DNA of 64,000 nucleotides from Nymphaea colorata (taxonomy: Eukaryota > Streptophyta > Magnoliopsida > Nymphaeales > Nymphaeaceae), in the NCBI RefSeq assembly GCF_008831285.2, contig NC_045144.1, forward strand, positions 558,001 through 622,000, read 5' to 3'. A model generated the notes under the pieces. The model ran no database searches. It was not told where the DNA came from and saw only the letters and a program-made list of their open reading frames with translations. Positions 2,391 through 64,000 of this stretch are shown in pieces. Position 1 is the first letter of the stretch. Each line of letters opens with the position of its first letter. Both the position numbers and the translations under genes were made by a program.

Positions 2391-2429
<39 letters not shown>

Positions 2430-2827: not shown

Positions 2828-2830
<3 letters not shown>

Positions 2831-2864: not shown

Positions 2865-2870
<6 letters not shown>

Positions 2871-3969
2871 TTAGTGAAACTAAAAACATCCAAAGAGTAA
2901 TGGAAGCCACAGTACAACTTAAAAAAAAAAGACGAACCAAAAGAAAATAGAAGCAGCAGAGAAGAAGAGAGGAACCAACAGCGAGAAATCCCTCAGGATA
3001 GCTAAAAGCTCCATTCTTAGGGTTTGCAATAAGTGGTGGAAAACGAAACGAGCTTTAGGAAAGAACACTTAATTGGGAATGATCCAAATCTTCCACCAGA
3101 AAATACAAAACCATGTATGCCAACTTCAAATACAGATGGCACATGGATCTACAACTTTAGTTTAAAGGAATTAGACATTTTCCTCTTGTTGACAAATCTA
3201 GCACAGCTCTATGTTACAGAAATTTCCTAATAGCCATCCGTTAGCAAACTGACCAAAATATCTTGATTGCCACGTTATTTTCTCCAGAAACCCCAAAGGA
3301 GGATTTGCTGATAGATACGAAAGAGATACATGGGCTCTACTACATCAACTAAATCAAAGACAAACAAGGCCACCACCAACAACAATCAAATTCTCTCGGT
3401 CCAACTAAATTGAAGACAAGCAAGTCCAGGAGAAAGACAAAGAATGTATCGTTTCTTTGCTGTCCTTAATTTGTACTTTGGTGTTTTCTTGTCATCTATT
3501 TTACATTTTGTTTTCATTTTACATGCAAAAATTGGTTTGAATCAACCAATTTGAATTGTACCAGTTCGTTCTCACCCAATATTTCATGATTTTATCATCC
3601 AGATAGCACTAGCTTTGATAGTCATACATGAAAAGACCTGAATACTTAGTAAGTTTCTTGTGAAGTTACATCATGTTTTGCATGTCTCCATTTATTTTGT
3701 AGCTCTAAAACAATTATTGACGTCGACTTTTCTCTATATGCCACAGCTTTCTTAAACTCCAAATCTATCAACCCCAAAAGGTCGCTGCTCTTCCATATCA
3801 AGCTGTAGCTGGATGTCCCCAGCACGGGTTTTCCGTGAGTTCTCAAATGCAACTACCTAGCAGCGTCTTCTAGGTGATTGTCACCTGAAAGTGAGCATGT
3901 CCTAGACGCAAATGTCATAACTAAATGACTGAGTAAGAATTTTGAGAAACCAAAGAAGTATTAAGTCAT

Positions 3970-34279: not shown

Positions 34280-37200
34280 AATTATTTCTTTCTTTTCTTT
34301 ATGTAGTTTAAACAAACATAGTTTGAACAATTCTTTTTCTTTCTATTCAAACAAGCTTTTATAACAATTTGTTTCATTCTATTTTCTTTCCTCTCCTTTT
34401 CTTCCCAAATCCTTTCTTTCCCTTTCCATTCTTTTCCTTTTAGACTAATTATTCTCCATCCAAACAGGTGCTATAATAGGTTAATGAAAAATTTATTTCA
34501 CAATTGGGATTGTGTTGCCTAAAGCCTCTCTAAGAGCCAGCACGTTTGAAATGACCTTATATAAGAAGTTACACGGGGAAATAGGATGCTACTGGTGTAC
34601 ACTTGTAGCTCCTTCTATCTTGAGATTCAGAACAATCAGAGTGTTGTTAAACTTCTTCACCATTCATCTTATTCCCATGAAAACTTCAACCATCTTGACT
34701 ATGTAATGACTGGTTACTCCTCGGTACTGTTGAAAAAGCGACCTGAAGGATCCACTATGTCTTGAAGCGCTCTCCGCTTTCAAACTAAAGTTGCGTACTT
34801 CAGTTCTTTTGCTAAAACAGATCTTAGGATTTATCGGCTCATCTCTCTTTTCCACTCGCCAGCACAGACTACTATTTAAAATAAGAACAAAACATGTAAT
34901 TCCCGTCTCTCGCTCTCTCTCTCTCTCTCTCTTGCTCTCTTCATGCAAGAGAAGTCAAAGGGCATGGAGCTGTTACTCTGTATCTTTCTTCCACCACACA
35001 TTCACTTCCAGCGGTAGACAAGTAAAAAAAGAGAGGAACGACCCCGTTGAATAGAAACCGTTAATTTACATGATATGACATTGTTGATATTAAAGTTTCT
35101 GTCTTGGTGGGAGAGACGCAGACTTAGAGGTGGAATAGAAAGGCTCGAATCAAAATACTTATGTGAAGTTGGTAGATTGTGCTTCCCATGGCAATATGGT
35201 GGCTATCAAAACAGGTATTATGAATACCATGGCAACATGAAAAATCCAAATCCGTTACATCAGAAGCAATTGACAGTCTAATTTATATGATTCGACATGT
35301 GCTAAAAATGAATCTTCAAGCAGAAGAACAAGTTTCCGCAACTTTTCGTCCTTTTTATGAAGGAAGTCTCTCACGTATATCACCGACTTCAACACAAAGC
35401 AGCATCACCACAAAAGCATATAGAAAACACATATGCTAATGAAACCACATCTGAAAGACGCCTTGATCGACCAGCTTCCCTTCCCTATTTTAAAGCTAGT
35501 CACAGTACCTACACCACGGTCCTCATGAATCTTCATGGTTGCCGATCGTCACTAGCTAATGCTGGAAGGAATTCCATCTTTCTGTTTGCTCTCTCTCCTC
35601 CCCCTCTCTCTCTCCCCCTCTCTCTAGACGTGCATAAGAACTCAAAATGCGTGGAGCTATCACTTTATTTCTTTCTTCGACCGCACTTCACTTTTAGTGG
35701 TGGAGAAGTCAAAAAAGAGGGAAACCACCCTGTTGAATAGAAACAAATAATTTACATTGATAAGACTTTTCTCAATATTTTTTGTTATAAAAGAGACAGC
35801 ACTGTCATTGAAAATTATACACACACATATATATATATTTATATTATGTGTGTGTATAACTAATAATAGATAATGAAAATACATATCACTTTTTTCTCTT
35901 TATTTTTCTCCTAACTATCTATCAAGTTAGATTGTATAACAGACCAACAGACCTCTTACAATATATATATGTAAACAGATAATGAAAATACACACACACA
36001 TACACTACTTCGATCACAAACAAAAAACCAACAGACCTCTTACAATATATATATGTATATGTATATATATATATACACACACACACCCTACTTGGATCAC
36101 AAACAAAAACCAACAGACCTCTTACATCATATATATATACACACAAACACTATACTTCGATCACAAAGAAAAACCAACAGACCTCTTATATTTGTGTTAA
36201 GAAGTGTTCTGAACAAAATATGAATCTCCTAATGTCTTCATTATAAACACTAATTTAATCTAAACAATGTTTAAGTTCAAATTACTTTTATAAAAAAAGT
36301 ATTTTTTCAACTTTTAATATTTTGATGTTATAAGTGCCATTCCTTTTTTAATTATTATGGTATATTAATAAAATAAAAAATAACTAACTTAATGTATGTT
36401 TATCACCAAATATATTTTAAGATAGTGCTAAATTATAAAGAAAAGGAATTTTAATATGCCCGGCTTCTGTCCCTTACCTAAGTGGTATGACCATTCTTAG
36501 GGTTTGCAATAAGTGGTGGAAAACGAAACGAGCTTTAAGAAAGAAGACTTAATTGGGAATGATCCAAATCTTCTACCAGAAAATACAAAACCATGTATGC
36601 CAACATCAAATACAGATGGCACATGGATCTACAACTTCAGTTTAAAGGAATTAGACATTTTCCTCTTGTTGACAATCTAGCACAGCTTATGTAACAGAAA
36701 TTTCCTATTAGCCATCGGTTAGCAAACTAACCAACATATCTTGATTGCCACGTTATTTACTCCAGAAACCCCAAAGGAGGATTTGGTGATGGATACGGAA
36801 GATATACATGGCTCTACTACATCAACTAAATCGAAGACAAAAAAGGCCACCACCAACAACAATCAAATTCTCTCGGGCCAGCTAAATTGAAGACAAGCAA
36901 GGCCAGGAGAAAGACAACGAATGTATTTCGTTTCTTTGCTGTTCTTAATTTGTACTTTGCTGTTTTCTTGTCATCTATTTTACATTTTTTTTTTCATTTT
37001 ACATGTGAAAATTGGTTTGAATCAACCTATTTGAATTGTACCAGTTCGTTCTTGGCCCGATATTACATGATTTTATCATCTAGATAGCACTAGGTTTGAT
37101 AGTCATACATGAAAAGACCACAATACTTAGTCCATTTCTTGTGAAGTTACATCATGTTTTGCATGTCTCCATTTATTTTGTAGCTCTTAAACAATTAATG

Positions 37201-37369
37201 ACATCGACTTTTCTCTATATGCCACAGATTTCTTAAACTCCAAATCTGTCAACCCTAAAAGGTCGTTTCTCTTCCCTATCAAGGTGTAGCTGGATGTTCC
37301 CAGCACGGGTTTTCCGTGAGTTCTCAAATGCAACAACCTAGCAACGTCTTCTAGGTGATTGTCACCTTG
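34280..37369. repeat. Repeat A, second long copy
   Basis: Collinear partner of 740-3890. Extra simple repeats appear at 35820-35850 and 35940-36150, where the segment around aaccaacagacctcttaca is itself repeated three to four times. The match ends at 37369. There it joins a piece of repeat R, whereas the first copy ends against a copia fragment. Confidence 0.8.
35940..36200. repeat. Tandem array of a TA/CA microsatellite plus flank
   Basis: Four imperfect units combine a caacagacctcttaca block, a TA run, a CA run, and a tacttcgatcacaaa block. The first long copy of repeat A has only one such unit, near 2440-2500. Confidence 0.85.
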
Positions 37370-37530
37370 AATCCATCAAAAGATGCATTTGCAATGATCA
37401 GTTGCTTGATCATGGTTTTAAATAATGGAATACAACTTTTACAGCAGTTTTTAATGATACAAAATAACCATTCCAGCACAAAAATAGCTGCCCGATTTCA
37501 ATATACACACACACACATATATATATATGC
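37370..37530. repeat. Repeat R fragment
   Basis: This matches 15722-15870 and 33445-33600 (caaaagatgcatttgcaatga, then the tgatacaaaataaccat block, then a CA/TA tract). It is fused directly to the end of repeat A. Confidence 0.75.
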
Positions 37531-44413: not shown

Positions 44414-45450
44414 GTATGTGAGCTTCATTGTCAATGAAAAGGATGTTCTCGTTTGTTCTTGTTGGTACTTGACAGAAGTGTCTACTGTCTTTTGATGTCA
44501 TTGTTGAACTTCTCCAAGATAGTAAGGGTTCAACTAGATATAGGATTTTAATGCTACTATGTTACTATGTTCTAATTTCAGTTTGTTTTTTACTTTTTTT
44601 ATGGAACAGGCAATTGCTTTATAGATTACCACAATTATGGTGTGCCTATGAATTATTTTTTCCTCCAAAATATTTAACACATTTGATGTAGAAGGTTTGC
44701 AGTCATATGGGTTCAAGCTGGACTTTGGCAAGTTCTTGTATGAAAACCCCTGTATTATAACAATTTTTTTTTTCCTTGTACACGTGAAAATCTAATTATG
44801 AAGGAAAATGAAGAAATTGAAGAAACATGAGAAAGTGACTTAAAGTAGAAGAGACCATATTCTCCATATAGGATGTATGAAGCAAATTCTTGTTCTTTCT
44901 TACAGATGATATGTGCCTCATAGGGAGAGTTACTTATGCAAGTTTTTTGTCCGTGCAGTTGATTGCCACAACTTCTCTTTTCCAGGGGGGGACTCCTCAT
45001 CTCCTGAACACTGAAGGCTGATTTTGAAAATTGCCATAAGCACAACTTTCCATTTTGCTCCTATTTTCTTTCTGCTGTGAGCATCTGTGATTGGTCTAGT
45101 TGTCATGACCAGTGACCACTTTAACGATGCTGCAACAGAAGAAGCCAGATATTAGGGGCTGTTTGGCCTTCATCTTGATCAAAAGAGAAACAGATTATGA
45201 ATCGTAGGTGTGGATCAAATTGCTGGCAAACTACGGTGGATGTAGACTTGCCATTTATCACTTTTTTGTTATTTTCTCAAGTCCTTTAAGATTTTTCTTA
45301 TTTATATATTATTTATTCTTTGACAAAAGTAGATAATATTTGTTGCTAAGCCCAACTGATTGAGTCTTTGAATCAGCCAATTCACCAAATGGGTACCCTA
45401 ACCAATTTGATTCACATTGAGATTTTTATAACACTGATTAAGACTTGATA
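44414..45450. other. No recognisable gene
   Basis: I looked here for downstream KUP/HAK exons (the next would carry a GDGVLTPAIS-like motif) and found none. The sequence is otherwise unassigned. Confidence 0.5.
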
Positions 45451-47345: not shown

Positions 47346-48347
47346 AATACACAAAACCTCTCATATACCCAAGTTGAGTGTCATGCCCCATCATCTCCTC
47401 TATCTTAAGAGAGACATGCCTTTCAGGATAGAAGATTAAACCAAAACCGTCATTCCATCTTAATTGTCTTAGTTGTTTGGTTTTCATTTCATTGCCTTCA
47501 CTTGTGTTGTGGACCAACTATCCCTTAGCACCCCATTGTTCAAATAGACTTGAAAAAGTTAGCCCGTGACAACTTGATTCTTTTGATAAGTACAATCTGA
47601 TCAAATTCATGGGTGTGTTGGTTGTGTCACATTATGATATAGTCTTTGAATTACATATCATACATCGCTTAGGTTTTTAGGTTGCTTGACAGAATATCTA
47701 TGAGAACCACTTTGCATCTCACATCCAACTTGGTTATGATACAATCATGTGTTTGCTAACTTGGGAGCCTACATTTTAAAAATATGCCAAGCTATTTTGT
47801 TCACATCCAACTCAGTTATGATAGAATCATGTGTTCCTAACATGGAAGCCTCCATGCCAAGCTTTGTCTCTAGAGTGCTAGAAAAGTTTTGTTTTCTCAG
47901 AATGCAGTTGTTCCAGCAGGAGAAGAAATTCGTAAAGACAACCTCCTACCTTTTGGAGTCCCCAAAAGCTTCCGTTTCAGAATAAAATCTAATGATATAT
48001 CAAATAATAGTTGTCTAGAGAGTCATTCCTTAGTTTTGGTGTGGCTTGTTGTAGCATTAATTTAGTTGTGTCTTTTTGGTTGATAAAAGTCGAAAGCACT
48101 TTTGTTTTACTTTTGGTGTCCCACATGGTTGCGGTTGCTGTTCTTGAAATGTGTTTTCAAAATCATGAATAAATGTTTCATGTGTTTCGAAAAATCCTAT
48201 CAACAGTAATAACTTTGCCTCCTTTTTTGGGAGTAAATTTCCTATTTTTAGAAATTTACCTGATTCTTTTTGTATTTTCTTAATTTTTGTGCTGCTGAAT
48301 TTTATTCCTGATTGGACATTGATGATAGGTTTTCTTTTTCGGTACAG
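47346..48347. other. No recognisable gene; upstream flank of RadA exons
   Basis: I looked here for the upstream RadA exons (zinc finger, Walker A and the AGPRVLEHIVDVVLY region) and saw none. A 37-base segment (acatccaact...atcatgtgtt) is repeated near 47724 and 47803. Confidence 0.5.
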
Positions 48348-49501
48348 GGTGAGAGATACATGTCCCATCATTTGTTGTGGTCTGTAAAGAATCGTTTTGG
48401 ATCCACCGATGAGGTTGGTCTAAAAGACTCCCTTCAGACATGAAATTTGACCATTGTGGTGCATCAATGAAAGTTTTTAATTGATTTTGAGGATTAAAAA
48501 ATGTGGCCTGATGAAACATTGACATTTCCTATGAGTTTGAATTTCAGTAGTCTTGAATACCATAAATGCCTGTTGGCAGTACTCTGAGGCATTTCCTCAT
48601 GACAATAGCGTGTCAAGTGTTGGTCAAATAGGCAAAATGGAAACTGTTGACTTACAGTGCATAAAGGGTAATCTGTAGCTTCATTTGCATGGAGGGTAAC
48701 CTGTTTGACCTGTGTCCCATACAAATGCACATGCGGTGCATAAATGTTCTATTGAGGGTTCTATATATGACTGCTCAAAATTGTTTGTGGATGATAAATT
48801 ATCATGGTTCATAGATCTTCACCACTGTAAGTTCTATTAATAGAATATTTTACCTTCTCAGTTTGGGGTATTTGAAATGTCCCAGTCTGGTCTTCAAGCT
48901 GCTTCAAATCCAAGTGAGATCTTCTTAAGTGAGAAAAATTGTAATTCAGAAGTTTTAGCAGGCTTAGCCATCTCTGTTATTATTGATGGATCTCGGATCT
49001 TTCTCCTGGAGGTGCAGGTATTCTCTGACATGCCTCATCAATGTGCTGGTTCAAATTTTCGTTTATACATTTTCACAGGAGTGAATTTCATGATACAGTT
49101 CTTTTCTGTGATTGAACATCATGATGTCCGGATGGTTCTGCTCTTTGGGTAGCTACTTCACTATATTGCCCTTTCTTCGTGGTTATGAAGAGGTTTTGAT
49201 TTCTGTTCTATATTTGATCATGTGCATGGATCTTACATACATCCTATTTGTTCCATTTGCATATGCAATGCAACTTTTTTTCTTCTCAAATAACGATAGA
49301 TTAGCACTGCAAATGTGGATTTTTTTTTCTACTCAATTGCAAATGCAGATGTTTCTTTTTCCTCTAGTCAGATCATTTGTGGTACCTATAGTTATGAGGT
49401 GCTGTCTGGTAGGCCTCTGACCTGCATTAGTAACTGTCTCTGATGAGAATATGTAGAACATATAGGCCTGATGAGAACAGGCCTCTGACAGGACTGTTCC
49501 A

Positions 49502-49502
49502 C

Positions 49503-49534
<32 letters not shown>

Positions 49535-49556
49535 GGAGAGAGAGGGAGAGAGAAGC
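49502..49556. repeat. GA microsatellite in the RadA intron
   Basis: An interrupted GA run of about 50 bases. The minus-strand Ser/Leu-rich frame across it is an artefact. Confidence 0.95.
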
Positions 49557-50559
49557 ATAAGGAGGAGGGAGTGACTCATGGAAGGAGTAGGGGCTAAAGT
49601 GGTTAGGTTCAAAGCAAGAGGAGAATGTTATGGTTGACCCGGGCCAGGTTGGTTCTGCTGCTTCTGCACTGCTTACCCATAGGCCATAACTGGCCTCCTC
49701 TATTCAAATTGTTGTGGTCAGATAGGCATGTCTTAAGTCTTAACCTGTGCAAAGTGTATCTCTGCCTCAAATAATCTGCTGACTGTTTTGTTTGGTAAAT
49801 GTGCTTCATCGGGTCCACATTCCTTCTTCCTTTTTTTGTTATTTTTCTGAGCTGCTCTAACTCCTTATATCAGATATGCTGTGAGACATGGCTTAAAGCT
49901 TGGTGTAGGCTGCTTGGACCTAAACGCCTAAATAAAAATATTTAGCTTAAACCCATAAGTCTGTAACATATCAAGCATGATGGTGTTTGCAATATTTTCT
50001 AGTATAGTATGTGGTATTGTAGTGTTTTATTATGAAATCCTTGTGTGAGTAGAGCTAGGGGCTCTTATTTCACCAAATTGTTCCTTTATGTGCTTTTGTT
50101 ACAACTTACAGTCTTACACTACACACAGAAGAAGCTTAATTAGCAGAAGGTTCATTGGAAATCAGTTTATCAATTCAAGAAATGGAGTTTCGTCAAAAGA
50201 CAACCTGTTGCTTGGCCAATCAATATTTATACTCTATAGTGACTATACATTACTTTGAGGGAAAAAAATCTAATGACAAGGAATCACTGAAAATTATCTA
50301 AAATACGATGTTTTTGTTTTAAGTCACATGAGTACATGTGATCTTACCACCTACCCATGTCGATATGTGAATAAGGAAACACAAGTACGTTGGTACGGCT
50401 GTATAGGCTGTATTTTAAAACAAAAAAAATATTTTTTGATACTTAATTTTTTCTTTAATTTTGATTTTTCCCTTCTTTTTTATTTTTCTTCCATCAAGAT
50501 TCTATATTTTCTTCTCATTTTTCATTAAGTTTGAGAATTTTTGTGGATTGACCTGACAC

Positions 50560-53230
50560 CCTTCCTCAGGGCAATGGGAAGCTCGTCATTTTCTTTTTCA
50601 ACCTCATCTTGAGTCTTCAAGGTAGGACTTGGTTCATCCAGGGAAGGAATGGCATTGGGATTGGAATTAGACCTCGCACCACAAGTCACCTCCTCTGTCC
50701 GAGCACCTCATATAGAGTAGACCTGTCCAAACAAACGAAGGCCTTCCTTCTCAGTCCCGGTGTTACACCCTTTCTCCTTCTCAGGCATATCAACAACTGT
50801 GAGAGGTTTTGAACATCCTTTCTCCCTTTCATACCCATAATCAACTGTGATAGGTTCTTCTTTCTTGTAATCCAAGAAGTCTGTAAATTGAATCTCTTGA
50901 CTCTGAGAATACTCTTCCCTAACCACAGACTTCTCACCCTGAAGAGTATTCTCACAAAAGTAAGATGCACCTTCCAAAAAGTTAACATCCCTTGTAACAT
51001 AAACTTGACCAGTAGTAGGATAAAGACATCTATACCCTTTTTGAGTGGAAGAATACCCAACAAACACACCCTTGATAGACCGGGGGTCAAGTTTCTTAAC
51101 ATTTGGACTGTGATCATGAATAAAACACACACAACCAAACACACGAGGGGGGAGAAGAAAAGGTTGACGACTTCCCGGAAGTAAGGAATGAGGAGTCCGA
51201 CCATTCAGTACACGACTGGGCATGCGGTTGATGAGGTACGCACTAGTAAGAACTGCATCACCCCAATAGTGTTTGGGAAGATTTCTCTGAAACAAAAGGG
51301 CTCTCGTGACATTAAGGAGCTGGCGGTTCTTCCTCTCAGCCACCCCGTTCTGAGGGGGGAGTATAACTACAGGACGTCTCATGAACAATCTCCCTTTTTC
51401 GAAGGAAATTCTCAACTGACTGACACATATACTCACGGGCATTATAAGATCGAAAAGTTTTAACATTTCCACCATATTGAGTTTGCACAAGAAGAATGAA
51501 TGTCTCTATGATTTAAGGTACCTCACTGCGATCTTTTAACAAGTACACAAAGGTGGTCCTAGAGAAGTCATCAATAAAAGTAATAAAATATTGAAACCCT
51601 TGACGGGTATGAATTCTCAAAGGCCCCCACACTTCAGAGTGAACCAAGGAAAAAACTTCATTAACACAACTAGTAGAAATAGGGTACGAAGCCCTCACAT
51701 GTTTGGCAAACTGACATACATCACAAGAAATCAAAGGCAAATTTAGAGTGGAAAACAAATCGAAAAACAACTCTTTTAAAATCCCAAAAGGTAAATGCCC
51801 AAGGCGTTCATGCCAATACAAAAAAGAATGAAGACAATCTTCTCTTCTCTTTTCTGTCTTGCTGATCGTTGTCATAAGAGTCGTGGCCACGCGTATGAGA
51901 AGACAATATAAGCCATCAGACGCCAAACCAATCCCAATCCTCTTCCTTATCACCAAGTCCTGCAAAACACAACGATTTATAGAGAAATGAGTTCACAATT
52001 CAGCTCTTTAGTAAGTTTACTAACTGATAAGAGATTTAAGGGAAGCTGAGGGACATGTAATGCTCCTCGCACATGAAATTTGTCAAACAAGGACAGACTC
52101 CCTTCTCCAGCCACAAAGGAAGAGGAACCATCTGCGAGGGATAACTCATTCCCTTCGAGAAGCCAACTTATACTCATGAAACAATTTAGGGTTACCTGTC
52201 ATGTGGTGAGTAGCACCACTGTCAACAATCCATTCTCCCAAGTAGGAGTTACCTTTATCCCCTACAATGGCAAGAGCATGATTAGCCTTCGTTTCGCAGT
52301 TCACAAAGCTGTTCAGCAGAAATGGAGGCCTTGCATCCAGTAGACTTGGTATCCTCCGACACAAGCATCTTCCCACTAGAAGATCTCGCCCTGTTACCCC
52401 ATTTTTCTAGATGAAGATCCCAACGGAAATCCACAGTATGGCCAGTCTTCTTGCAATGAGTGCATCTACGAAGAGGTTTGGGAGCACTACCCAGACCACG
52501 ACTAACAAGTGCAGATCTCTCATTATAAGGTATGTGATCCCTCTTCCCCCCAGGGGAACAAGTCTTCTCTGTTCTTCAGCCTCAACATGGGAGTAGACAT
52601 CTTCGATACTGAAGGATTCTTCAGAGTTAAGAATCTGACTCCTGATATTTTCAAATTCATCATTTAGCCCTACTAAGAACAGGAATATCCTATTCTCCCA
52701 TTCTTTTGCAATGTACTGCATCTGGTTGTCATGACAGTGCCAAGTAGCCTCGGAATGGTAGTCAAGATCCTCCCATTTAGATTTTAGAGCTGCATAGAAA
52801 TCTGCGACCGAGAGATCCCCTTGCCTGAGAGCGTACACATCCTTCATCAGTTGATACACATGAACCTTCCTCTTCTTCTGGCCATACATTTGTTCAAACA
52901 TCATCCACATATCTCTCGCAGTCTTCTTACGAAGAATGAGAGATTGAATATCAGATGAGACTGAATTAACAATCCAAGTTTTCACTTGGTTGTCCTCAAG
53001 AAACCAAGTATCTTAAGCTATATACTGTTCGTAGCAGGTTCAACCTTACTCCCATTCACATATGCAATACGGCCTCGACCAGCTATTCCCATGGTGATGG
53101 CGGCAGCCCACTTAAGATAATTTTCCTTAGTAAGGCGAACGGTAGTGACCTGAAGGGGAATACTCTCGGTTCTATAAGCCACAGCTTCATTCTAACTAGT
53201 GTTGACGGTTGACGGGGAAGAGGCTGCCAT
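50560..53230 (-). pseudogene. Ty1/copia gag-protease-integrase, family B copy 2
   Basis: Gag starts at the ATG ending at 53230 (MAASSPSTVNTS) with stops at codons 13 and 72. It continues as a UBN2-type gag to about 52600. A zinc knuckle near 52460 reads CTHCKKTGH but lacks the last cysteine. The protease follows with WIVDSGATHHMTG near 52230, then LPLNLLSVSKLTKELNCEL. The pre-integrase HHCC (WHERLGHLPF, SCDVCQFAKH) and integrase core follow, with HSEVWGP carrying Glu in place of the first catalytic Asp, and FQYFITFIDD. The integrase C-terminal part has AERKNR, KHYWGDAVLTSAYLINRMPS and KGVFVGYSSTQKGY. It stops at ELPIALRKGVRS near 50550, exactly where RT normally begins. RT, RNase H and the left LTR are absent. 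It lies in the large RadA intron. Confidence 0.9.
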
Positions 53231-53864
53231 AATTGCAGACCTGCCTTACAAAGGGGGCAAAAAGAAACAACAGGAAAAAAGGGAACAAACGGGCCAAAAA
53301 CATGAACTCCACCACAACAGAACCAGGGGCTGAACAGAAACAACCTGCCGTGCGATGGAGTAACGTTGGGCGAGGCAGCCGGTGGCAGCAGCGTTTCCAG
53401 GCGATGCAGTCAGGTGGTGGCGGCAGGAACAGAGCACGGAGTGGCGACGTTAGGCGCTGGCAAAGGCGACAGCGGCGGTCTCGAGCGATGCTCTTCGAAG
53501 GGTGAAGAGAAAAAAAACTCGGGCGCAGAAGGTGCACCGTCGGGCACAGCAGCCTTCGCCTGAGTCCACCAAAACTTCACAGCCGCAAGCAGGGCAGAAA
53601 GAGAGAGTCACCAGAATAGAGAGACACCGAAACTCCAGAAGGCGTTGAGTGCGTTGCCAAAACTCCAATAGTGTCGAGTGCATCGCTGGAAGAGACGCCG
53701 GAACTCCACGATGTCAGGCGATGACCAACGTCGGGCAGCGAACAGTAACAGCACGTGATTGGAACCGTCGGGCGATGGGCAATGAACAGTACCAGCACAA
53801 GTCCTCCTCTCACACGGCCACAACAGAAACAAAAACGCGAATCAGTCACGCCGGAACTTCACGA
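53231..53864 (-). mobile_element. Copia family B 5' leader, GC-rich
   Basis: The interval between the gag ATG and the primer site is unusually GC-rich compared with the rest of the window and is crossed by several overlapping ORFs on both strands. None matches a family I know. It is probably an untranslated leader and possibly captured sequence. Confidence 0.5.
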
Positions 53865-53875
53865 CTCTGATACCA
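53865..53875 (-). promoter_or_regulatory. Copia primer-binding site (tRNA-Met type)
   Basis: On the minus strand this reads TGGTATCAGAG. It abuts an LTR end, CCTACA, at 53881-53876, which fits the usual ...CA terminus. Confidence 0.92.
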
Positions 53876-54091
53876 TGTAGGAACACGAGGATCAAGAACA
53901 AAGGAATACGATGAACACGATGTAACGTCGAAAAACCCTCAGAAAGAGGAAAAAAAAACCATGGACGAGGAGGAACTGGCGCCCACTAGCAACCAGACTC
54001 TCTCTCTCTTAAGATTTCATTAACAACTCAAAATTAGGGCTACACGATGGATCGGGTATGGATCCAGACCCGGTCCTGAAACCCATTTAAC
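53876..54091 (-). mobile_element. Probable 5' LTR of copia family B copy 2
   Basis: The LTR begins with tgtaggaacacg on the plus strand (the reverse complement of an LTR 3' end). It may finish near 54091 (ttaaca), but this outer end is a guess. I found no partner LTR at the left side near 50550, so the element is truncated there. Confidence 0.5.
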
Positions 54092-54818
54092 ATGCTTCAA
54101 CAGTACTGTTAAAATTTAGAAACAGCAAACTACTTGAAATTCAATGTTGTTGTGCTACTCCTTTTTCTTGCTTTATGTGCTAATCTCATTATTCAAGAAG
54201 ATAAACGATGTTGACAGCTCCGTGTGAGACATATCTTCTGACAGTAATAGCCTGCAGATATTGACTGCCATGGGTTTTCTAGGAGCAAACTTCCTTTGAG
54301 GCCTGAAACTTGTTGTACAATCAGCTTTACCTCGTTAAAGCTTGTCCAATGGCTTGTCTGAACACTGTTAAAGTGACGCTCTAATGAAGCTTGCTTTTAC
54401 CTCTCCTTGACCATACTTGATTTTCAGGCTAGACCATTGGTTCCACAGATCCTAACCAGTTTTGGAAACTTAAAATGTCTTTTAAGTTGAAACTCCACTA
54501 GTAGATGGAACTGTGTCTTTCAAGTCAGAACTCTACTAGTAGATGGAACTCATTAATTCAAAGTTGATTTGGGTGTCCACAAAAGCTCATCATTAGACGA
54601 CCCTTTTGAGCTTTTCTGTGTGGGTGGAAGGACTCTTCTAAGTTATTTGGTTCAGATTCTCAGAATAGTTATAAAAGCTCTGGGACCAAATTGCAATAAA
54701 ATGTTTTTAATTATGTTCTAATTCTTTCTATCAATTAATTTGTGCATTCTCTTTAAAGACATTTGATTATTCATGCCATGAAGAATATGTGCTAACTTCA
54801 TGAAATTTCTTTTCATAG
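54092..54818. other. RadA intron sequence, no recognised feature
   Basis: AT-rich intron flank between the LTR and the next RadA exon. A duplicated 35-base block (agatggaactgtgtctttcaag versus agatggaactcattaa, with ctccactagtag) lies near 54490-54545. I looked for the missing RadA exon here and did not see it. Confidence 0.5.
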
Positions 54819-55060
54819 GCCATTTTTTTGAATGTTGTTAGCGGTATGAAGTTGACAGAGACAGCTGGGGATCTTGCAATTGCAGCTGCTATTTGCAGTG
54901 GGCATGTATTTCTTGATCATCTTGTTACGAGCAAAACTCTTGTTACTCTTTCCATGGATGGCACTGAATTCTGATCGAATGATTATTTTCTCATACTGTT
55001 TCCTGGAAATGTGCTGATAGCTTTTTGGAGTTTCTAATACCTAAGAATGTAGGTTTTATC

Positions 55061-55076
55061 GGAGAAGTGGAGAAGT
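55061..55076 (+). repeat. 8-bp tandem duplication in a RadA exon
   Basis: GGAGAAGT occurs twice in a row. Without one copy the sequence would read GEVGLGGELRT, the conserved RadA text. With both it reads GEVEKLVLVASFER. Confidence 0.9.
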
Positions 55077-56046
55077 TGGTCTTGGTGGCGAGCTTCGAAC
55101 GGGTATGTTTAGAAAATTGTGTACATTATAATTGCATCCTTTTTCTTTTTGTCATTTAAATGACAATGAAAAATGGTTTTCATTTTAACATACATAACAT
55201 GTTACCCTTAAAAACATTATTAAAAATATTTCAAACATTGTTTAAGATTATGATTGAGAATGTTGAATGCAATGTCGAATGATCGTTAGCACTGTGTTGA
55301 CATGTAGTGTGGGAACAGCAACCTCCTCCATCTGTTCTCTAGAAAGGTTTTACGATCAAAGTTTTTGGATGTCCACTATTCTGTATCAATCTGTTCTTTT
55401 CGGATGATATCATCTGACAATCACTATATGAATACCTTGATAACATCAATGAACTTGGCCAAGGGAATCTGTTCATAGTAAAGAGATTTCTAATGCATGG
55501 CTACCATGCCAATCCTAACCTGTTTGCCCCTCTTTTTGTGCTTAAGATATGAGGTGCATTCCTCTCTTAACAGTTAACATTGAACACATGTCCACGGTCC
55601 TTAGCCTTCTGATTGGTTCCAGCTATCTTTTGATGCTTGGCATCATGACTTAGTAGATTGCATACATTACTTCAATGTTGAAAATATCAATGCATCTCAT
55701 TTATATCTAAAATGCTGATTTTTTGTAAAATCCTTTCAAGTGTTTGAGCTGTTTGTCCATTTATTACTTTCTCTAGTTCTTTTGTTTTTTGAGAAATTAA
55801 CGTGAATTTTATGTGAGCAATCGACTAGATCTCTTGCTTGTATTTGCTTCAGCTTTTCTGAGGTCTGCCTGTAGATTTAACCTCTCATACTTGCAGTGCA
55901 CGGCTAAGTGTGCTGTGCTTGGATGATGTCATGTTTTAAGTTAGCCAAATATTCATGCTACTTGATAATGCAAGGACAATTTGGATATTTCAGGTTGCAA
56001 GAATGGATAAGAGGCTTAACGAACTTATTAAATTGCGCAATTTAAG

Positions 56047-56144
56047 AAGTGCGTTATTCCAAAAGTGGCAGAGAAGTCGTTCAAAGCCATTGACAAAGTG
56101 CGTTATTCCAAAAGTGGCAGAGAAGTCGTTCAAAGCCATTGACA
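56047..56144 (+). repeat. 49-bp tandem duplication in the last RadA exon
   Basis: Identical units start at 56047 and 56096 (aagtgcgttattcc). Only the second unit is read in the RadA frame (KCVIPKVAEKSFKAID); the first is read in another frame. Confidence 0.95.
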
Positions 56145-56378
56145 CAAGCGGGATAACCACAGTGACTTGTAGCAATCTGAAAGAGGTTCTGAACAAAGTA
56201 TTTCGGACAGATTAAGTCCTCCTTTGCACAACTTCCCTCGACGCCTTTGGTGCAGTGTTGTACATAACAACTAAGGTTGCAAATAGGCCAATGTTATGAA
56301 ATAACTGTCAATTAACATAATTGAGAGCTCGCGGGAGCTAGGTTGGTTCACAAAACTATCAAAATCTCTTGATCCGAA

Positions 56379-57906
56379 TTATGACGTCGCCGAGAAATTG
56401 GCGTCCTCACTCAAGGCCTTCCCGTCTGCCAAGAACATTTGTAGATCTTGAATGCTCGACTCTCGCTTACTCTTGGCTTCTTCAATGTCCTCTGGGCTGA
56501 GGAAGCTAGGTTGGTTCGCAGAGGAAAGCAACCTCGCCCACATACGGTCGGTTATACAGACTTGATTCTGCTTCTCAGTCGCACGCTGCAAGATCAGGAC
56601 AATAAAAGCCAGAAATGAGATTCGAATAAATTTCAAACTGAAAAGGAAATTTGACACATTAGACAATCGTGGTGTTTTTCAGTCACGGAGGAACTTACGT
56701 AGATAGGTATATAAGCATGCCTGCCATTAACAGGACTGACAGTGAAGCCCAAGTATTCAGCCATGGCGCCATGGACAACACTATGAACGAGAAGCGTGCA
56801 ATAGACGTTGTCTGAAGCATTGCTAGGAATGGCACGAATCATGTACGTGGGATCTGCAGACAAATGCCATCGTTCAAATTTAGTCTTCTAGAACAATCTT
56901 TTGTTTGCATCCAAAGTTGCTTTACTCACATACCTATGTATGTGAGGTTCATTACAATCTTTTCCTTGGCAAAGTGGTCCTGCAATTCAAAGGAAGACGA
57001 GTTTATTATGGACCTCAAAGACTATTCAACTTTGTCACTTACAAGCACTCTGCGTAGGCCTTATCCTCCAGTTGTAATAACTTGATCTTGTGAGAAAGCC
57101 ACAGCTCAACGTCAAGAAGGACCTAGTTTCCCTAAGCATCCTTGTGTTCCATGTCGCGCAAGTGCTCCTCAATAAGATTCTGCCCACCACCTTCTGCTAT
57201 AACAATAACCATATGACCATTCTCTCTGAGTCTGTGCTCTATGAATTCGAAGAGTCTCCCCCCCGGCCCTTCCAAATAGAAGGGAGATTCAGGAATCTGG
57301 TAACAGTCCTACCAATCGCAAGAGGAGTTTGTCAAAAACCAGGCAACATTCGACTGGTGCATAAGACACAAGACTTATTAGGTTAAGAAATTTAAAGCAT
57401 ACCACATCTCTGCTAGCCAACGTAGAGTACATAGCAATAAATCCTGCAGCATCAAATGTATGACGGAATTAATAATCAGATAGAGAAATTCATTTCATGA
57501 ATTGACCCACTTCAAAAGAGGGGTTGCATTCTTACGGAGAGAATTCAGACATCTCAAAGAAGGCTCCAACTTCCTATTCGACAGCTACAAAACAATTTGA
57601 TCTTAGAAAAACTGCACCAAAAGGCCCGGTGGAGTTGCGGCAGTGAGGTGAATTATGAACCTCTTAGAGTTCAAGTTGTATGAACTACACCGCACTTCAA
57701 TTCAAAGAAAACCTTAACATGAATAAACCAACAGCATACCAGCCCATCAGCTTAGAGCCATGTAGCATAAGGATCTACTTGGCTGATATCTCCAATGGAA
57801 TAAAGAGTGCTTCAATGCCAAGTTGCAAGCATATTACCGCAATCTCATTGTCAATAGTCTTTGGAATTCCGACAACTGAAACTTTAAGACCACGCCTTTC
57901 AATCTC
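56379..57906 (-). pseudogene. ATP-dependent 6-phosphofructokinase, 3' part of gene
   Basis: Plant ATP-PFK phosphorylates fructose 6-phosphate in glycolysis. Minus-strand exons: 57906-57838 (GLKVSVVGIPKTIDNEIA, the conserved GIPKTIDND segment), 57443-57403 (FIAMYSTLASRDV), 57308-57081 ([13 protein letters not shown], then [12 protein letters not shown]), 56979-56934 (DHFAKEKIVMNLTYI), 56853-56699 ([26 protein letters not shown]) and 56585-56379 ([24 protein letters not shown]). Splice sites are mostly good. The exon at 57308-57081 has TAG stops at 57134-57132 and 57125-57123, and its donor reads AAG|TT. The exon carrying the LMGR segment was not identified, apart from a doubtful piece at 57587-57540 with a stop. 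The N-terminal ATP-binding exons with the GG motif are absent. It is tail to tail with RadA, 163 bp apart. Confidence 0.9.
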
Positions 57907-57909
57907 CTG

Positions 57910-59110
57910 CAGGGAAGAAAGTCCAGAAGTTTAATATTCATGTTACCATAATGCGGTGCAATAAACTACGGTGACTCCATGACCAAGCAACATGAAAAGA
58001 TAAGCGCAGCGACAAGAGGTTTTATTCCAAACGATGAATTTAGGTTAGAAAGGAAAATACCTGCAGGTATCATGACAACTTGCCCTATCTTATTGTAAAT
58101 TAGTAGTTATAGTTTATACATGGCATGAAGTTTCATAGTATATTTTATCTTTTCATATGCCAACAACTGAAATACTGCACCTTTCTTGGACTACCATTAG
58201 GTGGAAAAATATGCATTCATATAGCACAATCACCAAGACATCTATTGCACTCTTAAAAAACAAGAACGAATAGGTGGCAGCAAATTTCTGAAAAATTTTC
58301 TCCACATGCAAATGGGAAGATTAGTAGGTGACATGAAACGAACGTCTCGCATTTGCAAGAGATACTAATCAAACGTTCAACATAGGCAGGAAGAAGCGAA
58401 ATGATATACACAAACAAGATTAAAATATTCAACATAAATACACCATGCAACGTAGATAGCTTCTTGTTATCTACATGAGAAATGAACTTATGAACAAGAC
58501 CTCATCTATTCAATGTTTAACCAAGCTAACAGGCCTTCAGTAAACAAGCCAGATTATAAAGTTCCAGGAGCATGCAAAGACTTTCTTCATCCAAACAGCA
58601 TACAAGAACGAAAAAAAACCCAAACCACAAATGCAACCTAAATCAAGATATTTTGCTCTTTTCTTCATCTTAAGAAAGAAAAAATCTCACAATTGTGAGA
58701 CATCAAAAAAATTATCTTGATCACAAGGATGCAGCAATCCATTTGGGGTTCGGCAATTGTAATAGAGATAAAAATATCAGTTCCATATAAAAAGATACAA
58801 AGCTAGAAACAGAATCACATCAGTTTGATACAAGCTCCAACCACTTGGACATCTGTAATTGGGTCAACACTAAACAATCACAGGTCATTCTTTTACATTA
58901 GATCATCTAACCACTTGGACCTGGCAGATTGTCCATTCAGCTATAAAATAGGGTACAAGTCATATTCAGCTATAAAATAGCCTACAAGTCATGGAAATAT
59001 GTTGCATGTCATAGGCCAACTAATTTTTTCATTCTCTACTCTCTCTTCAACCTTGAAAATTTCAGCAATCAAAAGTTCTATTTGGCCAATTCTTCAGGGA
59101 AAGAAAAAAT
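57910..59110. other. No recognisable gene
   Basis: AT-rich sequence upstream of the phosphofructokinase fragment. I looked for the missing N-terminal PFK exons and saw none. A short duplicated piece (agctataaaatag...acaagtcat) lies near 58938-58995. Confidence 0.5.
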
Positions 59111-59114
59111 GAGT

Positions 59115-59668
59115 TTATTTACATGGAAGATTCCGTGCCCAAAGTGGAGCAAGACCCCTGTAGAACCTGCAGTTACAAAGGCATTTAGCAATTAGAATCA
59201 AAGAGATGAACTCAAAGTCTGAAACCATCTTCAGATATACACAAATAACTTCGAGCAATGAACAAAGAAGCTCCTCCTTACCCTGGCAGACCTTCAGCTG
59301 CACACAATTTTGGAAAGCCATCAACCAATCCTTTAGCATAGTTAGGTTGAGTTTGCACACGAATTTTGACTTCCTCAAAAGGATAGAGGGCAGCATCTGC
59401 AATCACTGCTCAACATCTGGAATCACTTGAGCAGATGCACTGCTCAAAAATTAAATCCAAGTTCTCCGCCTCCCAGCGACATTTAGCCCAAACGCATCAG
59501 CATACGTCTTCTTGAAGTATTCATAAAGGCCAAACTTACAACCTCCTTGTGCAAGGCACCATATCCATATAACTTCCCAGCCCAACCTCTCCAAAGTCCT
59601 AGAACCCCTTGCTCCTTCCATAATACACTAAAATCAGAAAAAATGCCATTGTATTTTGCTGGATTCAC
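59115..59668 (-). pseudogene. Mitochondrial phosphate carrier, internal gene fragment
   Basis: A member of the mitochondrial carrier family that imports phosphate across the inner membrane (PHT3/MPT type). Minus-strand exon 59668 to about 59460 reads VNPAKYNGIFSDFSVLWKEQ, then GLWRGWAGKLYGYGA. A frameshift of a few extra bases (gccttgcac) follows, after which the other frame gives QGGCKFGLYEYFKKTYADAF, the expected continuation. Exon 59397-59282 reads YPFEEVKIRVQTQPNYAKGL, the carrier signature P-x-[DE]-x-[VI]-[KR] region, with a GTAAGG donor. Exon 59166-59115 reads FYRGLAPLWARNLP and then stops, where the family has PYTMMKF. The N-terminal exons and the third carrier repeat are missing. It is a truncated fragment with intron structure retained. 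Confidence 0.88.
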
Positions 59669-59779
59669 CTACAAAGAAAAATATCACAAAATGAAACACG
59701 TTTCAAGCAAAATTCTCTTTCTTTGCTTTACGATTATTTTATGAGTTCGCATTTTTTTTTTAAGCTGAACTGTTCTTCT

Positions 59780-60416
59780 GGGGGCCGTTTGATGGCTGGA
59801 AATATGGAAACAGAAAAAAATTTCCAGAAAAAAATTTCTGGAATTGAGGAATAAGAAATAAAATTCCACATTTTCAAAACCAGCTTGTGTTTGTTAAGTT
59901 GGAAATATTTTTCTGGAAAGAAATTTCTTCGTCATCATCATCTTCTTCGCCTCCACATTCGTCATTGCTTTCCTCCAGACGAAGTGGCTGTCTCATTAGC
60001 CCCTTTATTCTTCTTATTTGTTTCCCATTTTTGGACCCTCCCTGTCCCTGGTCTACCATCCATCCCTTCAGCATAGATGTCCTCCGGTGAGAAGCGTGTC
60101 CTGGCCATGACCGACCCACAGAGGGTGAGAGGCTTTCGTGCGCAGGCAGGAGGGAGGTGACCAAGGAAGGCAGCAGCGGCAGGAGGGAGCGATGAGCATG
60201 CCCTAACGGGCAAAAAAAATTTCCAGAAAGTTTCAACCTCTCGCGGTGGAAACATTTTTTCGGAAAAAAATTTCAAAATATTTCCGGTTTATCAAACGCG
60301 GAATTTTTTTTTGTTACTGTTAAAACCAAAATCGGAAATTTTTTTCCCGAAAAATGTTTCCACGCGAGAGGTGAAAACATTTTTCTGGAAATTTTTTTTG
60401 CCCGTTTTGGGAATAC
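59780..60416. mobile_element. Nested fold-back / MITE-like element with a GC-rich insert
   Basis: The left end near 59780 (ccgtttgatggctggaaata) is an inverted match to 60256-60302 (ttccggtttatcaaacgcgg). A second pair of long arms, 60205-60274 and 60333-60416, is nearly perfectly inverted (aacgggcaaaaaaaatttcc against its complement), giving a fold-back of about 210 bp. Between 59930 and 60200 lies a GC-rich segment with open frames on both strands but no recognised family. It could be captured gene sequence. It lies between the phosphate carrier and patatin-like fragments. Confidence 0.65.
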
Positions 60417-60447
60417 TTTGTGCAAAGCCATATTGCAATTTTGCATT

Positions 60448-61305
60448 TCAATCGCAACTTTGAAAAGCATTAGTGCCAAAGGTGGATTGCAGAGCGTCCT
60501 CCATGGTGTTTCCGGATACAATAACTGCACACACTATAGCCCTGAAAGATGAACCAGCTAACAGAGTGTTCTCCTGCAGCCATAACCCTAGTTGAGACAA
60601 GATCGGATTATGGAGGGGGAAGAAAAAAAAAGAAAGAAAGAAGTTCATTATTTAATCGAAGCAAGCACTTCCGAGAACTTATGCAGAATTTGTTTGCAAC
60701 AAATCATCTGACCAAGAAATCCGTCAGCACTCAATTTGTCGAAGTTCCGAAAGAAATTCAGACCTACGAGGCTACTAAGATAAAACTAGGTGGAATTCCC
60801 ATTTACAATGGGTGCTTTTCCTTGAAAACGGCTAAAATTTTGATGTTCTCACCAAAGTATCAAATTGCTAGGCAATCAGAAAAGCACACGGTTGGGTCTA
60901 AGCATGAGTCAGAACACAGAGAATCACAGCATCAAGATCACAGATATAATCCAATTGCAGTTGCACACGACAAAAGCAACACAGAGCGATAAACTCTTTC
61001 CCTCTTCATTACCCGAATGTACCCCTTCTCCAGGAGAATCTGCGCGACGCCGAGATGGTAAGGAAACGAAAGCCCCGCAGCGGAGAAGCTGAAGCCGGGG
61101 CTCGTAATCTTCGACCACTCCCTCTCCGCTTCGACGTCCTTCTCCCTCTGCTCCCAGAAGACGGCGGACTCCGCCTCAACGACGATCATGGCAGCCACAC
61201 CAACTCGATCGCCCTCCTCGAAACTCACCAGGACGGAACCTCCGCCCGAATGCCGCGTCCTCAGGAGCGAGGACGCGAGGCCCATGAAGAAATCGCCAGT
61301 AGCGA
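60448..61305 (-). pseudogene. Patatin-like acyl hydrolase, 5' part of gene
   Basis: Exon 1 is read on the minus strand from inside the transposon junction at 61305 to 61013. It has ATGDFFMGLASSLL, FWEQREKDVEAEREW and SPGFSFSAAGLSFPYHLGVA, the patatin N-terminal strand and oxyanion region, and ends EKGYIR at a GTAATG donor. Exon 2, from 60573, has ENTLLAGSSFRAIVCAVIVS, then GNTMEDALQS, and stops at 60448. The nucleophile-elbow motif GxSxG should read GSSAG but reads GSSFR, so the elbow glycine is lost. The catalytic aspartate region and all later exons are missing. The family removes acyl chains from membrane lipids. The true start lies beyond the hAT-like insertion (62557 and onward, frame VTRLPSRLFVV). 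It is a broken fragment. Confidence 0.85.
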
Positions 61306-62556
61306 TAGGGGTGCACAACGAGTCGAGTTACTCGAACTCGACTCGTTTAACTCGACTCGTTAGTTTAAACGAGCTGCTCATTTTGTTAAACGAGTCGAGC
61401 TCGAGTTGACGAGTCGACTCGTTTAACTAATCGAGTTCGAGTTCGAGTTGCACGAACTCGACTCGTATAAACTTGACTCGACTCGTACAAACCGGTTCAT
61501 GAAACCATTCACCGGTTTAAGGTTAAAAGTAAAAACGAAACGTCGAAAGCCTTTCTCTCTATTCTCGATTTCTCCCATTCCATCGACAGCAAAATGTCTT
61601 CCCTCTTCCGTTTCCGTCGACCACGACCATGTCTTCCGTCGACCCCGACCGTCGACCACCAGACCAGACGAGGTCACGAGAGAAGCACCCTTGTGATTCG
61701 ACCATGTTCCATCTAGAAGGGGAAGGCCGATGGGGTGAAGCCACAAAGCGCAGCAGCGGAGCAACCGGCAGGGCGGCGGGCGGTAGGTTTTCTTCTTCTT
61801 CTTCTTCTTCTTGAATCGGTTCTTCTTCTATTGGGTTTTCATTTTTTCCCCCTTCTTCAAGCGCTTGGGTCTCGCTTGCATGGTCGGTGATTTTCCCCCT
61901 TATTCAAGCACCTGGGTCTCCTTTGCGTGGTCGGTGATTTCCCCCTTCTTCAAGCACCTGGGTCTCGTTTGCATGATCAGTGACGCGCGACCTTTGTCCC
62001 GAACTCCCCCCCGGTTAGGGTTTAACTTCTCCCTCGTTTTTTTTTTGGTTTATTGCTTTGAATCTTGTGGTATTTTCTATTTTGTTGTTATTGATAGTAA
62101 ATTTGTTCTTCTCGTTTTCGTGTGTTGTTTTTACATGTAATGTGGACTGATTACATCTCTGTTTTTACATGTAATGTTGTTTTTGGTGTTTTCATCTCTG
62201 TTTTTCATCTTTGTTTTGCTGTTATTGTCGTGTGATTTTCATCTCTGTTTTTTCATATCTGTTTTTCATCTCTGTTTTGCTGTTACGCGAGTCGAGCTCG
62301 AGCTAAACGAGCTAAAGTTAAATGAGCTTAAATGGTAAACAAGTTGTCGAGCTAAATCGGGTTAATTGAGTTGAGCTCGAGCTTGACTTTCAGTAGTCGA
62401 GTCGAGCTCGAGCTTGCTGTAAGAAGCTCGACTCGAGCTCGAGCTTGCTGTAAGAAGCTCGACTCGGGCTCGAGTCGAGTTCGAGCTCGAATAATTTTAG
62501 TCGAGTCGAGCTCGAGCTGGCCAAGCTCGGCTCGAACTCGCTCATGAACAGCCCTA
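61306..62556. mobile_element. Non-autonomous hAT-like element, 1,251 bp, with 8-bp target duplication
   Basis: The 8-base direct repeat AGTAGCGA flanks it exactly at 61298-61305 and 62557-62564. The ends are TAGGGGTG at the left and CAGCCCTA at the right (complement TAGGGCTG), a short imperfect terminal inverted repeat. Subterminal arrays of gagtcgagctcgag words lie at 61320-61500 and 62285-62545 in inverted arrangement. The eight-base target duplication and the TAGGG-type ends fit the hAT superfamily. The interior has no transposase. It contains a CTT run (61790-61815) and a 47-bp tandem repeat (61846-61984). Confidence 0.85.
61846..61984. repeat. Three-unit 47-bp tandem repeat inside the hAT-like element
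   Basis: Each unit runs cccccttcttcaagcacctg, then ggtctc, and ends with a ggtcggtgatt word, with several mismatches between units. Confidence 0.85.
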
Positions 62557-62690
62557 AGTAGCGACGACGAACAACCGACTGGGCAACCTAGTCACGTGCC
62601 TTCTCCTGTACTGTGGAAAATAATCTGAGGGCTTCTTGGTAGTCGGCAGAAGGAGGGAGTGTTGGCGAAAGGCGCATTGGAAGCTTCGAG

Positions 62691-63059
62691 TTGAAGAAAT
62701 CTCGTCGCTTGCTCACATTCTCCTTCTGTTTTGTGTTCTTTATTTTATCATTGTGGAGGAGCGGTGTGTGTAATGTGTATTGTAGAGATCCAGGGGAAAA
62801 CTTGAACGAGGAGGAAATGGCTCCAGTTATATGGACCCTGAACGAAGTTTACGTCCATAAAATTGGTGTTAATTTCATAAATGGGTCATACATTTTCGAA
62901 AATGTTGTGAACGCTTACTTTTTTTTTTCTAAAATCAACGTAACTTTTATACATCATGAAAATATTGGGATGGACAACTTGCCATTGCTATGTCTCGCTC
63001 TCCTCCAGTGTAGGCACATTATTGCCCATACCAGCCTCTTAAAAGTTTTTTATTTTTAA
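62691..63059 (+). CDS. Unrecognised 122-residue open frame
   Basis: An ATG-started frame with a hydrophobic N-terminal stretch (FSFCFVFFILSLW) and no family I recognise. It lies divergent to the patatin-like fragment and could be part of that gene's upstream region or a chance frame. Base composition becomes AT-rich in its second half, and the frame runs into a T-rich tract, which argues against a real gene. Confidence 0.2.
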   Translation: MKKSRRLLTFSFCFVFFILSLWRSGVCNVYCRDPGENLNEEEMAPVIWTLNEVYVHKIGVNFINGSYIFENVVNAYFFFSKINVTFIHHENIGMDNLPLLCLALLQCRHIIAHTSLLKVFYF

Positions 63060-63116
63060 ATAGAAATATTAAATATTTATTCTTAGATATATATAAGTGA
63101 TCTACAAGATTTAAGT

Positions 63117-63117
<1 letters not shown>

Positions 63118-63146
<29 letters not shown>
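63118..63146. repeat. TA microsatellite
   Basis: An alternating TA run of about 28 bases. Confidence 0.95.
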
Positions 63147-63149
<3 letters not shown>

Positions 63150-63294
63150 GTATATACAGTATATTTGTGAACGCCGATCGATTTGAGTTGGAAGAAAACG
63201 GAAGAAAAAGAAAGAAGAAAAATGAAAGGAGGTAAGAAAGTCCGATGGAGGGAGAGAAAAAGTTTTCGCTCTGTGTTAAGCGTCTCCATAAGCT

Positions 63295-63440
63295 GATTAT
63301 TAAACCATTTCTCGCAACACGTTGTGACAGAGGTGCAAATGATGATTATTAGACCGTTTCACATGACACGTTGTAACAAAGGTGAAAGTGAGTTGTTATA
63401 CTACTTCGCACAACACATTGTGACATAGGTGAAAATGATG
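63295..63440. repeat. Three-unit 48/49-bp tandem repeat
   Basis: Units start near 63295, 63344 and 63392. Each has a gattattaaacc-like start, a gcaacacgttgtgac-like core and an aggtgaaaatgat-like end. The rest of 63441-64000 is AT-rich with no recognised feature. Confidence 0.8.
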
Positions 63441-64000
63441 ACATGTGAACAACACTTTCGATGATATTAAAATTTTAAAAAATAAAAAGAAAAATGTGCA
63501 AAATTTGTTTTGTTACTGAAAATATATTTGTGGGGTTGTTATTGCATTTTGTTCATGTTTTCTTGTTTTCTCCTTTTTTACTTGCATGTCATCATGTAAG
63601 CCAAATTCCATCGCGATCTTGAAAACCACCCTAATTCCATTGGTCCAAGCCACAATACATATTTTGCATGTAGATGAAACCTCTTTTCAATAATATGTCA
63701 CTAATATGCGATACAACTAGCCGCCATACTTTCAAAGCACTAGAAACATGGTTTACATATAAACAAAAAAATATGCAAAATTATCAGTTGTCTTTTATAA
63801 ACAATACATATATTTCACTATAATATCCTAAGACGTATGTTCTACTGCCTCAAGGCTTACTCCCGCCTCATTGTTTTTAACAATATTGATCTAAGTTTTT
63901 CCTTGTTGCACACATTAAAATTGTCTCACACACACACCTGCTTATGAAGATATGTACGTGATGTCGCACTGCACCCATATAATGCATTTCTCCTTCATTG

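Follow-up and report, generated by a model that had tools for sequence, protein, structure and literature searches.

Gene fragments at the C7 locus

We analysed 64,000 nucleotides of Nymphaea colorata DNA (the window), positions 558,001–622,000 of contig C7 (NC_045144.1), in which an earlier note had described three unrelated, cut-off, intron-bearing gene fragments in a row on the minus strand: a patatin-like 5′ part, a middle part of a mitochondrial phosphate carrier gene and a 3′ part of a phosphofructokinase (PFK) gene. That note attributed the array to capture by a Helitron or a Pack-type transposon. The window was searched against its own genome (408 Mb, 783 contigs), and since these searches score the best candidates only, all copy counts given here are lower bounds. 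Intron-bearing plant-type genes and Copia-type elements in the window indicate a plant origin. The array and its surroundings comprise the following features.

47993–58399: segment matching C1:28145047–28155124 (89–93% identity, order and orientation kept in the parts tested)
48342–56203, plus strand: 3′ part of a RADA/Sms gene (TIGR00416, E = 8.9e-13; tblastn exon matches)
50711–53012, minus strand: remains of a Copia-type retrotransposon between RADA exons (Pfam matches)
56379–57906, minus strand: 3′ exons of a plant-type ATP-dependent PFK (NF005301, PDB 2hig, C1 match)
57753–57754: loss of 128–129 bp in the window copy (alignment of the window and seven copies)
58400–58412: C1/C9 joint, where 8–13 bp (filler or microhomology) separate the two matches
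58408–59778, minus strand: mitochondrial phosphate carrier fragment, matching C9:12039973–12041319 at 92.9% (eight copies and C9 aligned)
59779–60403: interstitial repeat-like stretch of ∼0.6 kb (self-comparison and inspection)
60404–61305, minus strand: 5′ part of a patatin-like pseudogene (ATG at 61285; exon 1, 61285–61013; exon 2, 60573–60482)
61306–62556: hAT-type non-autonomous element upstream of the patatin ATG, with an 8-bp target-site duplication (TSD), AGTAGCGA, at 61298–61305 and 62557–62564
62557–63534, minus strand: upstream sequence of the patatin pseudogene, three pieces shared with C8:2261278–2262100 (79–91%)

Domain and profile matches confirmed the three fragments, and related loci continue past the fragment ends. 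The inventory itself was incomplete: the RADA/Sms 3′ part on the plus strand had been overlooked, and PFK lies in the same C1 segment. The PFK piece is supported by NF005301 (E = 1.8e-57, profile positions 194–441 of 445) and by PDB 2hig (E = 2.5e-22), and matches C1:28,152,910–28,155,124 at 90–93%. It ends at a stop near 56380 and carries in-frame stops and one frameshift. The 128–129 bp lost from it cover an intron end together with the greater part of exon VIDKSFGFDTAVEEAQ; among the copies compared this loss is found in the window only, the stretch being kept in all seven fetched copies of the block and, by coordinates, also in the copy at C7:212875–215003. The array is not unique in the genome, and other copies retain the PFK exon that the window lacks.

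With a RADA probe, tblastn matched exons at 48342–48440, 48859–49017, 54819–54899, 55019–55101 and 55994–56203, whereas the first ∼190 aa and probe residues 266–304 were unmatched in the window. The piece corresponds to C1:28,150,751–28,152,106 (90%), on the opposite strand to PFK, and its frame is disturbed by 8- and 49-bp tandem duplications. The carrier piece, ∼1.35 kb long, contains an intron end, an exon, an intron, another exon and almost the whole intron after it, with two Mito_carr matches (E = 1.3e-8 and 7.9e-12), and is damaged by a 4–5 bp insertion, a 20-bp duplication and a nonsense codon. In C9, carrier exons, located with a carrier probe, flank the copied part on both sides. Several of the frame-breaking changes, at window 55060–56144 and 59380–59420, consist of tandem duplications as short as 8, 20 and 49 bp, a kind of change often tied to break repair.

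In the patatin-like piece, exon 1 (91 codons) is followed by a GT–AG intron and by exon 2. The piece is cut off, as the earlier note had it, but it does not end in exon 2; instead, a 68-bp deletion spans the exon 2/intron 2 border and the piece continues in intron 2 to ∼60400. We rejected a miniature inverted-repeat transposable element as the source of the sequence after ‘MEDALQST’ in exon 2, because the C8 homologue shows intron 2 there after the 68-bp deletion. Pfam Patatin scored weakly (E = 0.012; 16.2 bits, with the curated cut-off at 27.7) and a PDB search with this piece gave no match, so the assignment is made mainly on the 83% DNA match to C8:13.93 Mb, in which the frame continues past the window's break. 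The window has GSSFR where C8:13.93 Mb has GSSAG, a motif that we take to be the nucleophile elbow.

The 68-bp deletion is common to the window, to a longer copy at C8:2.26 Mb and to a copy at C7:1.278 Mb that has the 3′ side only. The C8:2.26 Mb locus is the one read of three C8 copies at 2.10–2.26 Mb (95%); it extends 3′, matching C8:13.93 Mb there at 91% over 338 bp, and the longer pseudogene copies continue normally where the window's piece ends at ∼60400. Because the segment is longer in C8 and is shared together with its upstream sequence, it was cut in the window's block, and no clean 5′ capture took place. The C7:1.278 Mb copy belongs to a second type of mosaic (L037, C7:1277900–1279100), in which the patatin 3′ part stands beside sequence like window 44439–44982 (82%).

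Joined segments and their copies

Comparison with C1 covered the left-hand segment except for window 50,400–54,800, which holds the Copia-like element, and 56,220–56,380. A third query placed the left edge of the match at window 47,993 (C1:28,145,047). RADA and PFK lie tail to tail, as convergent neighbours, in C1 and in the window alike. On C1, the following PFK exon (VYIIGGDGTQKGASSIYA) comes 69 bp past the right edge of the match, whereas the window turns to carrier sequence at that edge. By these matches, window 47,993–58,399 is the counterpart of ∼10 kb of C1 with two neighbouring genes, its middle being outside the comparison, and its cargo is the RADA 3′ part (plus) and the PFK 3′ part (minus).

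PFK thus appears as a 3′ part because it lies at one edge of a segment that has the convergent RADA gene, on the other strand, in its interior. An independently captured PFK 3′ piece was rejected, as one C1 segment holds both genes. The earlier note had taken the succession of a 5′, a middle and a 3′ piece as a signature of capture; with four fragments, one of them reversed, this order has no special meaning and is a by-product of the strand and the edge that remained from each segment.

The homology breakpoints, which that note proposed to examine for sharpness, are sharp: C1 and C9 sequence switch within 8–13 bp. No TC or CTRR ends were seen at the joints inspected, and the C1/C9 joint (58399–58412) is nearly bare, with a short filler and no element end. 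This joint is identical in all nine copies of the array that were found.

At least nine copies, the window included, exist in the genome: seven lie on C7, the remaining two on C182 and C778, which are short contigs. Copies on C7 with PFK and the C1/C9 joint lie at about 0.21, 0.23, 0.61 (the window), 0.83, 1.31, 1.36 and 24.74 Mb; further partial RADA matches were found at C7:0.92 and 3.72 Mb. The carrier query found eight of the copies; for the ninth (C7:0.21 Mb), reading extended only as far as window-equivalent 58.9 kb. Over the carrier piece, Kimura two-parameter distances are 0–0.023 among eight copies and 0.048–0.053 to C9; since the copies are closer to each other than to C9, joining came before amplification. 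The 4–5 bp insertion is present in 8/8 aligned copies, the 20-bp duplication in 7/8 and the nonsense codon in 4/8. Most simply, the frame-disturbing insertion would be older than the split of the copies, and the simplest reading of these alignments is that joining and first damage preceded amplification.

Local deletions, an inversion and the presence or absence of the hAT element distinguish the copies. Among the seven fetched copies, the closest relatives of the window are those on C182 and C778; these two and the window lack a ∼550-bp stretch separating RADA from PFK as well as ∼860 bp at 59,932, both of which the other five have, and C182 and C778 further lack window 54,124–56,080. The left edge of the block is at 47993 or 49132 depending on the copy, and two copies (c1311 and c1358) contain an inverted part. 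Such differing edges and inverted parts would be as expected of duplication by recombination.

The hAT element has TIRs (terminal inverted repeats) matching at 9/14 positions in addition to its TSD. It is missing from four of the seven fetched copies, and in c1311 the intact empty site with a single TSD was read. It is a later insertion and carries none of the gene fragments. Further right, beyond the window, a satellite-like array of ∼115-bp period begins at ∼65.8 kb window-equivalent (L032/L033, C7:622001–642000).

Elsewhere in the window, repeated blocks at 1–3900 and 34400–37500, ∼33.5 kb apart and 90–97% identical, suggest that a larger unit of the window itself may have been duplicated. 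Fragments like aspartic proteases (TAXi_N/TAXi_C) lie on the minus strand at 11605–12735, with a 99-bp tandem repeat at 12280–12476, and at 22247–22717. Remains of a retrotransposon of LINE (long interspersed nuclear element) type occupy 24246–29010 on the plus strand (DUF4283, E = 8.7e-9; RVT_1, E = 3.4e-5, under the curated cut-off). Rfam and tRNA scans of the window gave no match.

Segmental duplication or transposon capture

These data argue that the array is very probably part of a mosaic segmental duplication, in which unlinked segments were joined end to end and the composite was then amplified on C7, and not a product of Helitron or Pack-type capture. A ∼10-kb C1 match, a ∼1.35-kb carrier stretch that is longer in C9 and a patatin stretch that is longer in C8 follow each other end to end; the first holds two genes (its middle lying outside the comparison), introns are kept, one joint is bare, and the composite is found in nine copies. 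Longer gene loci elsewhere in the genome, which the earlier note proposed to look for, do exist: C1 for PFK and RADA, C9 for the carrier and C8 for relatives of patatin. That note was also right about copying at the DNA level, for the pieces retain introns, and in carrier, patatin and PFK alike these introns can be aligned with the matching loci, unlike in a processed pseudogene. In mechanism, repair of double-strand breaks, by end joining or template switching, would have joined the segments, and ectopic recombination on C7, near the satellite-like repeats, would then have multiplied the composite. The gene fragments would be its non-functional passengers.

Several points weigh against this explanation. 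The comparison was made within one genome, with no related species and no empty ancestral site in the data. C1 was read directly over 241 bp only, the remaining collinearity being given by match coordinates outside 50,400–54,800. The right outer limit of the composite lies outside the window and was not reached. For patatin, C8 holds relatives of the window's piece, which make it no more than a candidate donor. The nonsense codon and the 20-bp duplication conflict in their distribution among copies; sequence exchange between copies is therefore probable and the order of events less certain. Finally, the end of the carrier piece (59778) coincides with repeat-like sequence, and relatives of part of the interstitial stretch are dispersed in the genome. 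A small transposon may therefore have contributed to the carrier/patatin joint without enclosing the gene pieces.

This last point leads to the alternative that survives best, which is compatible with mosaic duplication: end joining carried the segments, but a transposon made the carrier/patatin joint, its insertion or aberrant excision within the intron of patatin having introduced the carrier piece. In contrast to the C1/C9 joint, this one is not bare. Both the carrier stop at 59778 and the patatin stop at ∼60400 lie at repeat-like sequence, at a point where longer patatin copies continue normally, and the interstitial stretch contains an imperfect palindrome of ∼200 bp (60205–60406, 77%) and possibly an imperfect TIR pair at about 59780 and 60303. 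Its longer version, as in c1311, has relatives at C11:18712166 (88%), on C6 (85%) and on C10 (84%), and the window retains ∼121 bp of that query. Inspection revealed no TSD around the stretch, however, and its content is variable, with ∼860 bp more in five of the seven fetched copies and ∼408 bp missing in two. We consider such a contribution unlikely on balance, although it is the one competing account with an appreciable chance. A ∼1-kb stretch at L016:5645–6640, found in five copies of the block, has intron-like signals and the 88% relative at C11:18712166; it might be a Pack-type element or a piece of yet another gene.

According to the second alternative, a large Helitron took pieces from C1, C9 and a C8-like locus stepwise to C7, and the C7 copies are later duplications of the element. 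Stepwise capture of several gene fragments by a single Helitron is known in maize, according to the excerpted text of PMC3288121, and retained introns and sharp breakpoints would suit it. One Helitron-like 3′ end was observed in 54–64 kb, more than the average of 0.2 over 30 random resamplings. However, this match, on the plus strand at 57297, falls within the PFK fragment, and a scan of the whole window gave just one more, on the minus strand at 14582; neither is at an edge of the array. The ends that the earlier note proposed to look for around 56.2–61.3 kb, 5′ TC and 3′ hairpin with CTRR (placed between A and T in a Helitron) or TIRs, were not found bounding the array in the scanned stretches, the right edge of the block being outside the window. 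No Rep/helicase protein appeared in Pfam results for five sequences and 20 chosen frames, which a non-autonomous Helitron would lack in any case. The cargo includes a two-gene segment of ∼10 kb, the C1/C9 joint is bare, and 9/9 copies found lie on C7 or the short contigs instead of being dispersed. Hence, Helitron capture is improbable, clearly more so than a transposon contribution at one joint.

Capture by a Pack-type element with TIRs is less credible still. Pack-TYPE elements arise in TIR superfamilies beyond MULEs, as the part of PMC8903248 used here states, and the carrier–patatin stretch, whose longer version has dispersed relatives, is possibly bounded by the imperfect TIRs. That putative element would be interstitial, lying between gene pieces and not enclosing them. 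A scan of 53–64 kb for TIRs with TSDs of 8–11 bp found no pair bounding the array and, besides the hAT element, one AT-rich pair (63143–63532), where 0–5 per resampling are expected; superfamilies with shorter TSDs were covered only by listing CACTA-like ends, and the scan concerned the window only. Another copy shows the empty site of the hAT element, which holds no fragment. Self-comparison detected no long inverted repeat flanking the array, and the nine copies found on C7, C182 and C778 lack the dispersal of Pack-TYPE and Pack-MULE copies.

The remaining possibility, either that neighbouring genes resident here decayed in place or that the assembly is wrong, is the least plausible of all: pseudogenes are present and C182 and C778 could be alternative haplotypes, but there are matching loci on C1, C8 and C9, and nine copies whose edges differ have one and the same C1/C9 joint.

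Relation to known mosaics and meaning

The excerpted account in PMC7419210 describes the LCR16a blocks of primates as mosaic interspersed segmental duplications, or duplicons. As far as that account goes, the C7 array resembles them in its segments of mixed origin, its incomplete gene copies, its many copies mostly on one chromosome, and its varying breakpoints, inversions, deletions and repeats at breakpoints. It differs in being a plant array beside satellite-like repeats, and no transcribed core gene family was identified, nor was one sought. In comparison with the maize Helitrons, as far as the excerpt of PMC3288121 describes them, gene fragments of different loci likewise stand side by side, whereas the array has no Helitron ends that we found, includes a ∼10-kb two-gene segment and a joint with short filler, and has its copies on C7 and short contigs only. 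With the Pack-MULE and Pack-TYPE elements of the passages used from PMC8903248 it shares gene-fragment copies able to give chimeric transcripts; unlike them, it shows no TIR pair with an 8–11 bp TSD around the gene fragments.

The amplified sites lie 0.1–3.7 Mb from one end of C7 (partial pieces included) and ∼0.8 Mb from the other. We dropped the suspicion that the array is subtelomeric and report positions only, as the telomere repeat was not seen in the 600 bp read at each end of C7, nor in the first 600 bp of C8. A paper search on subtelomeric blocks of gene fragments in plants gave none on a block of this kind, judged by titles and the openings of abstracts. It is conceivable, though improbable, that C7 acts as a sink, where pieces related to at least three other contigs were joined beside the ∼115-bp satellite-like repeats and then amplified. 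In an equally speculative extension, this would be a recombination-poor or supernumerary-like region, and the nine-copy composite would be the equivalent, in a plant, of the core duplicons of primates.

The array is a worked example of how mosaic segmental duplication can yield fragments resembling a transposon's catch. Matching loci are needed to separate duplication from capture: here a neighbouring gene on the opposite strand came along with the ‘captured’ piece. Such blocks can inflate gene counts and imitate Pack-type or Helitron elements in annotation. The local history is of interest, but the event is of an ordinary kind, and no fragment-collecting jumping gene is required.

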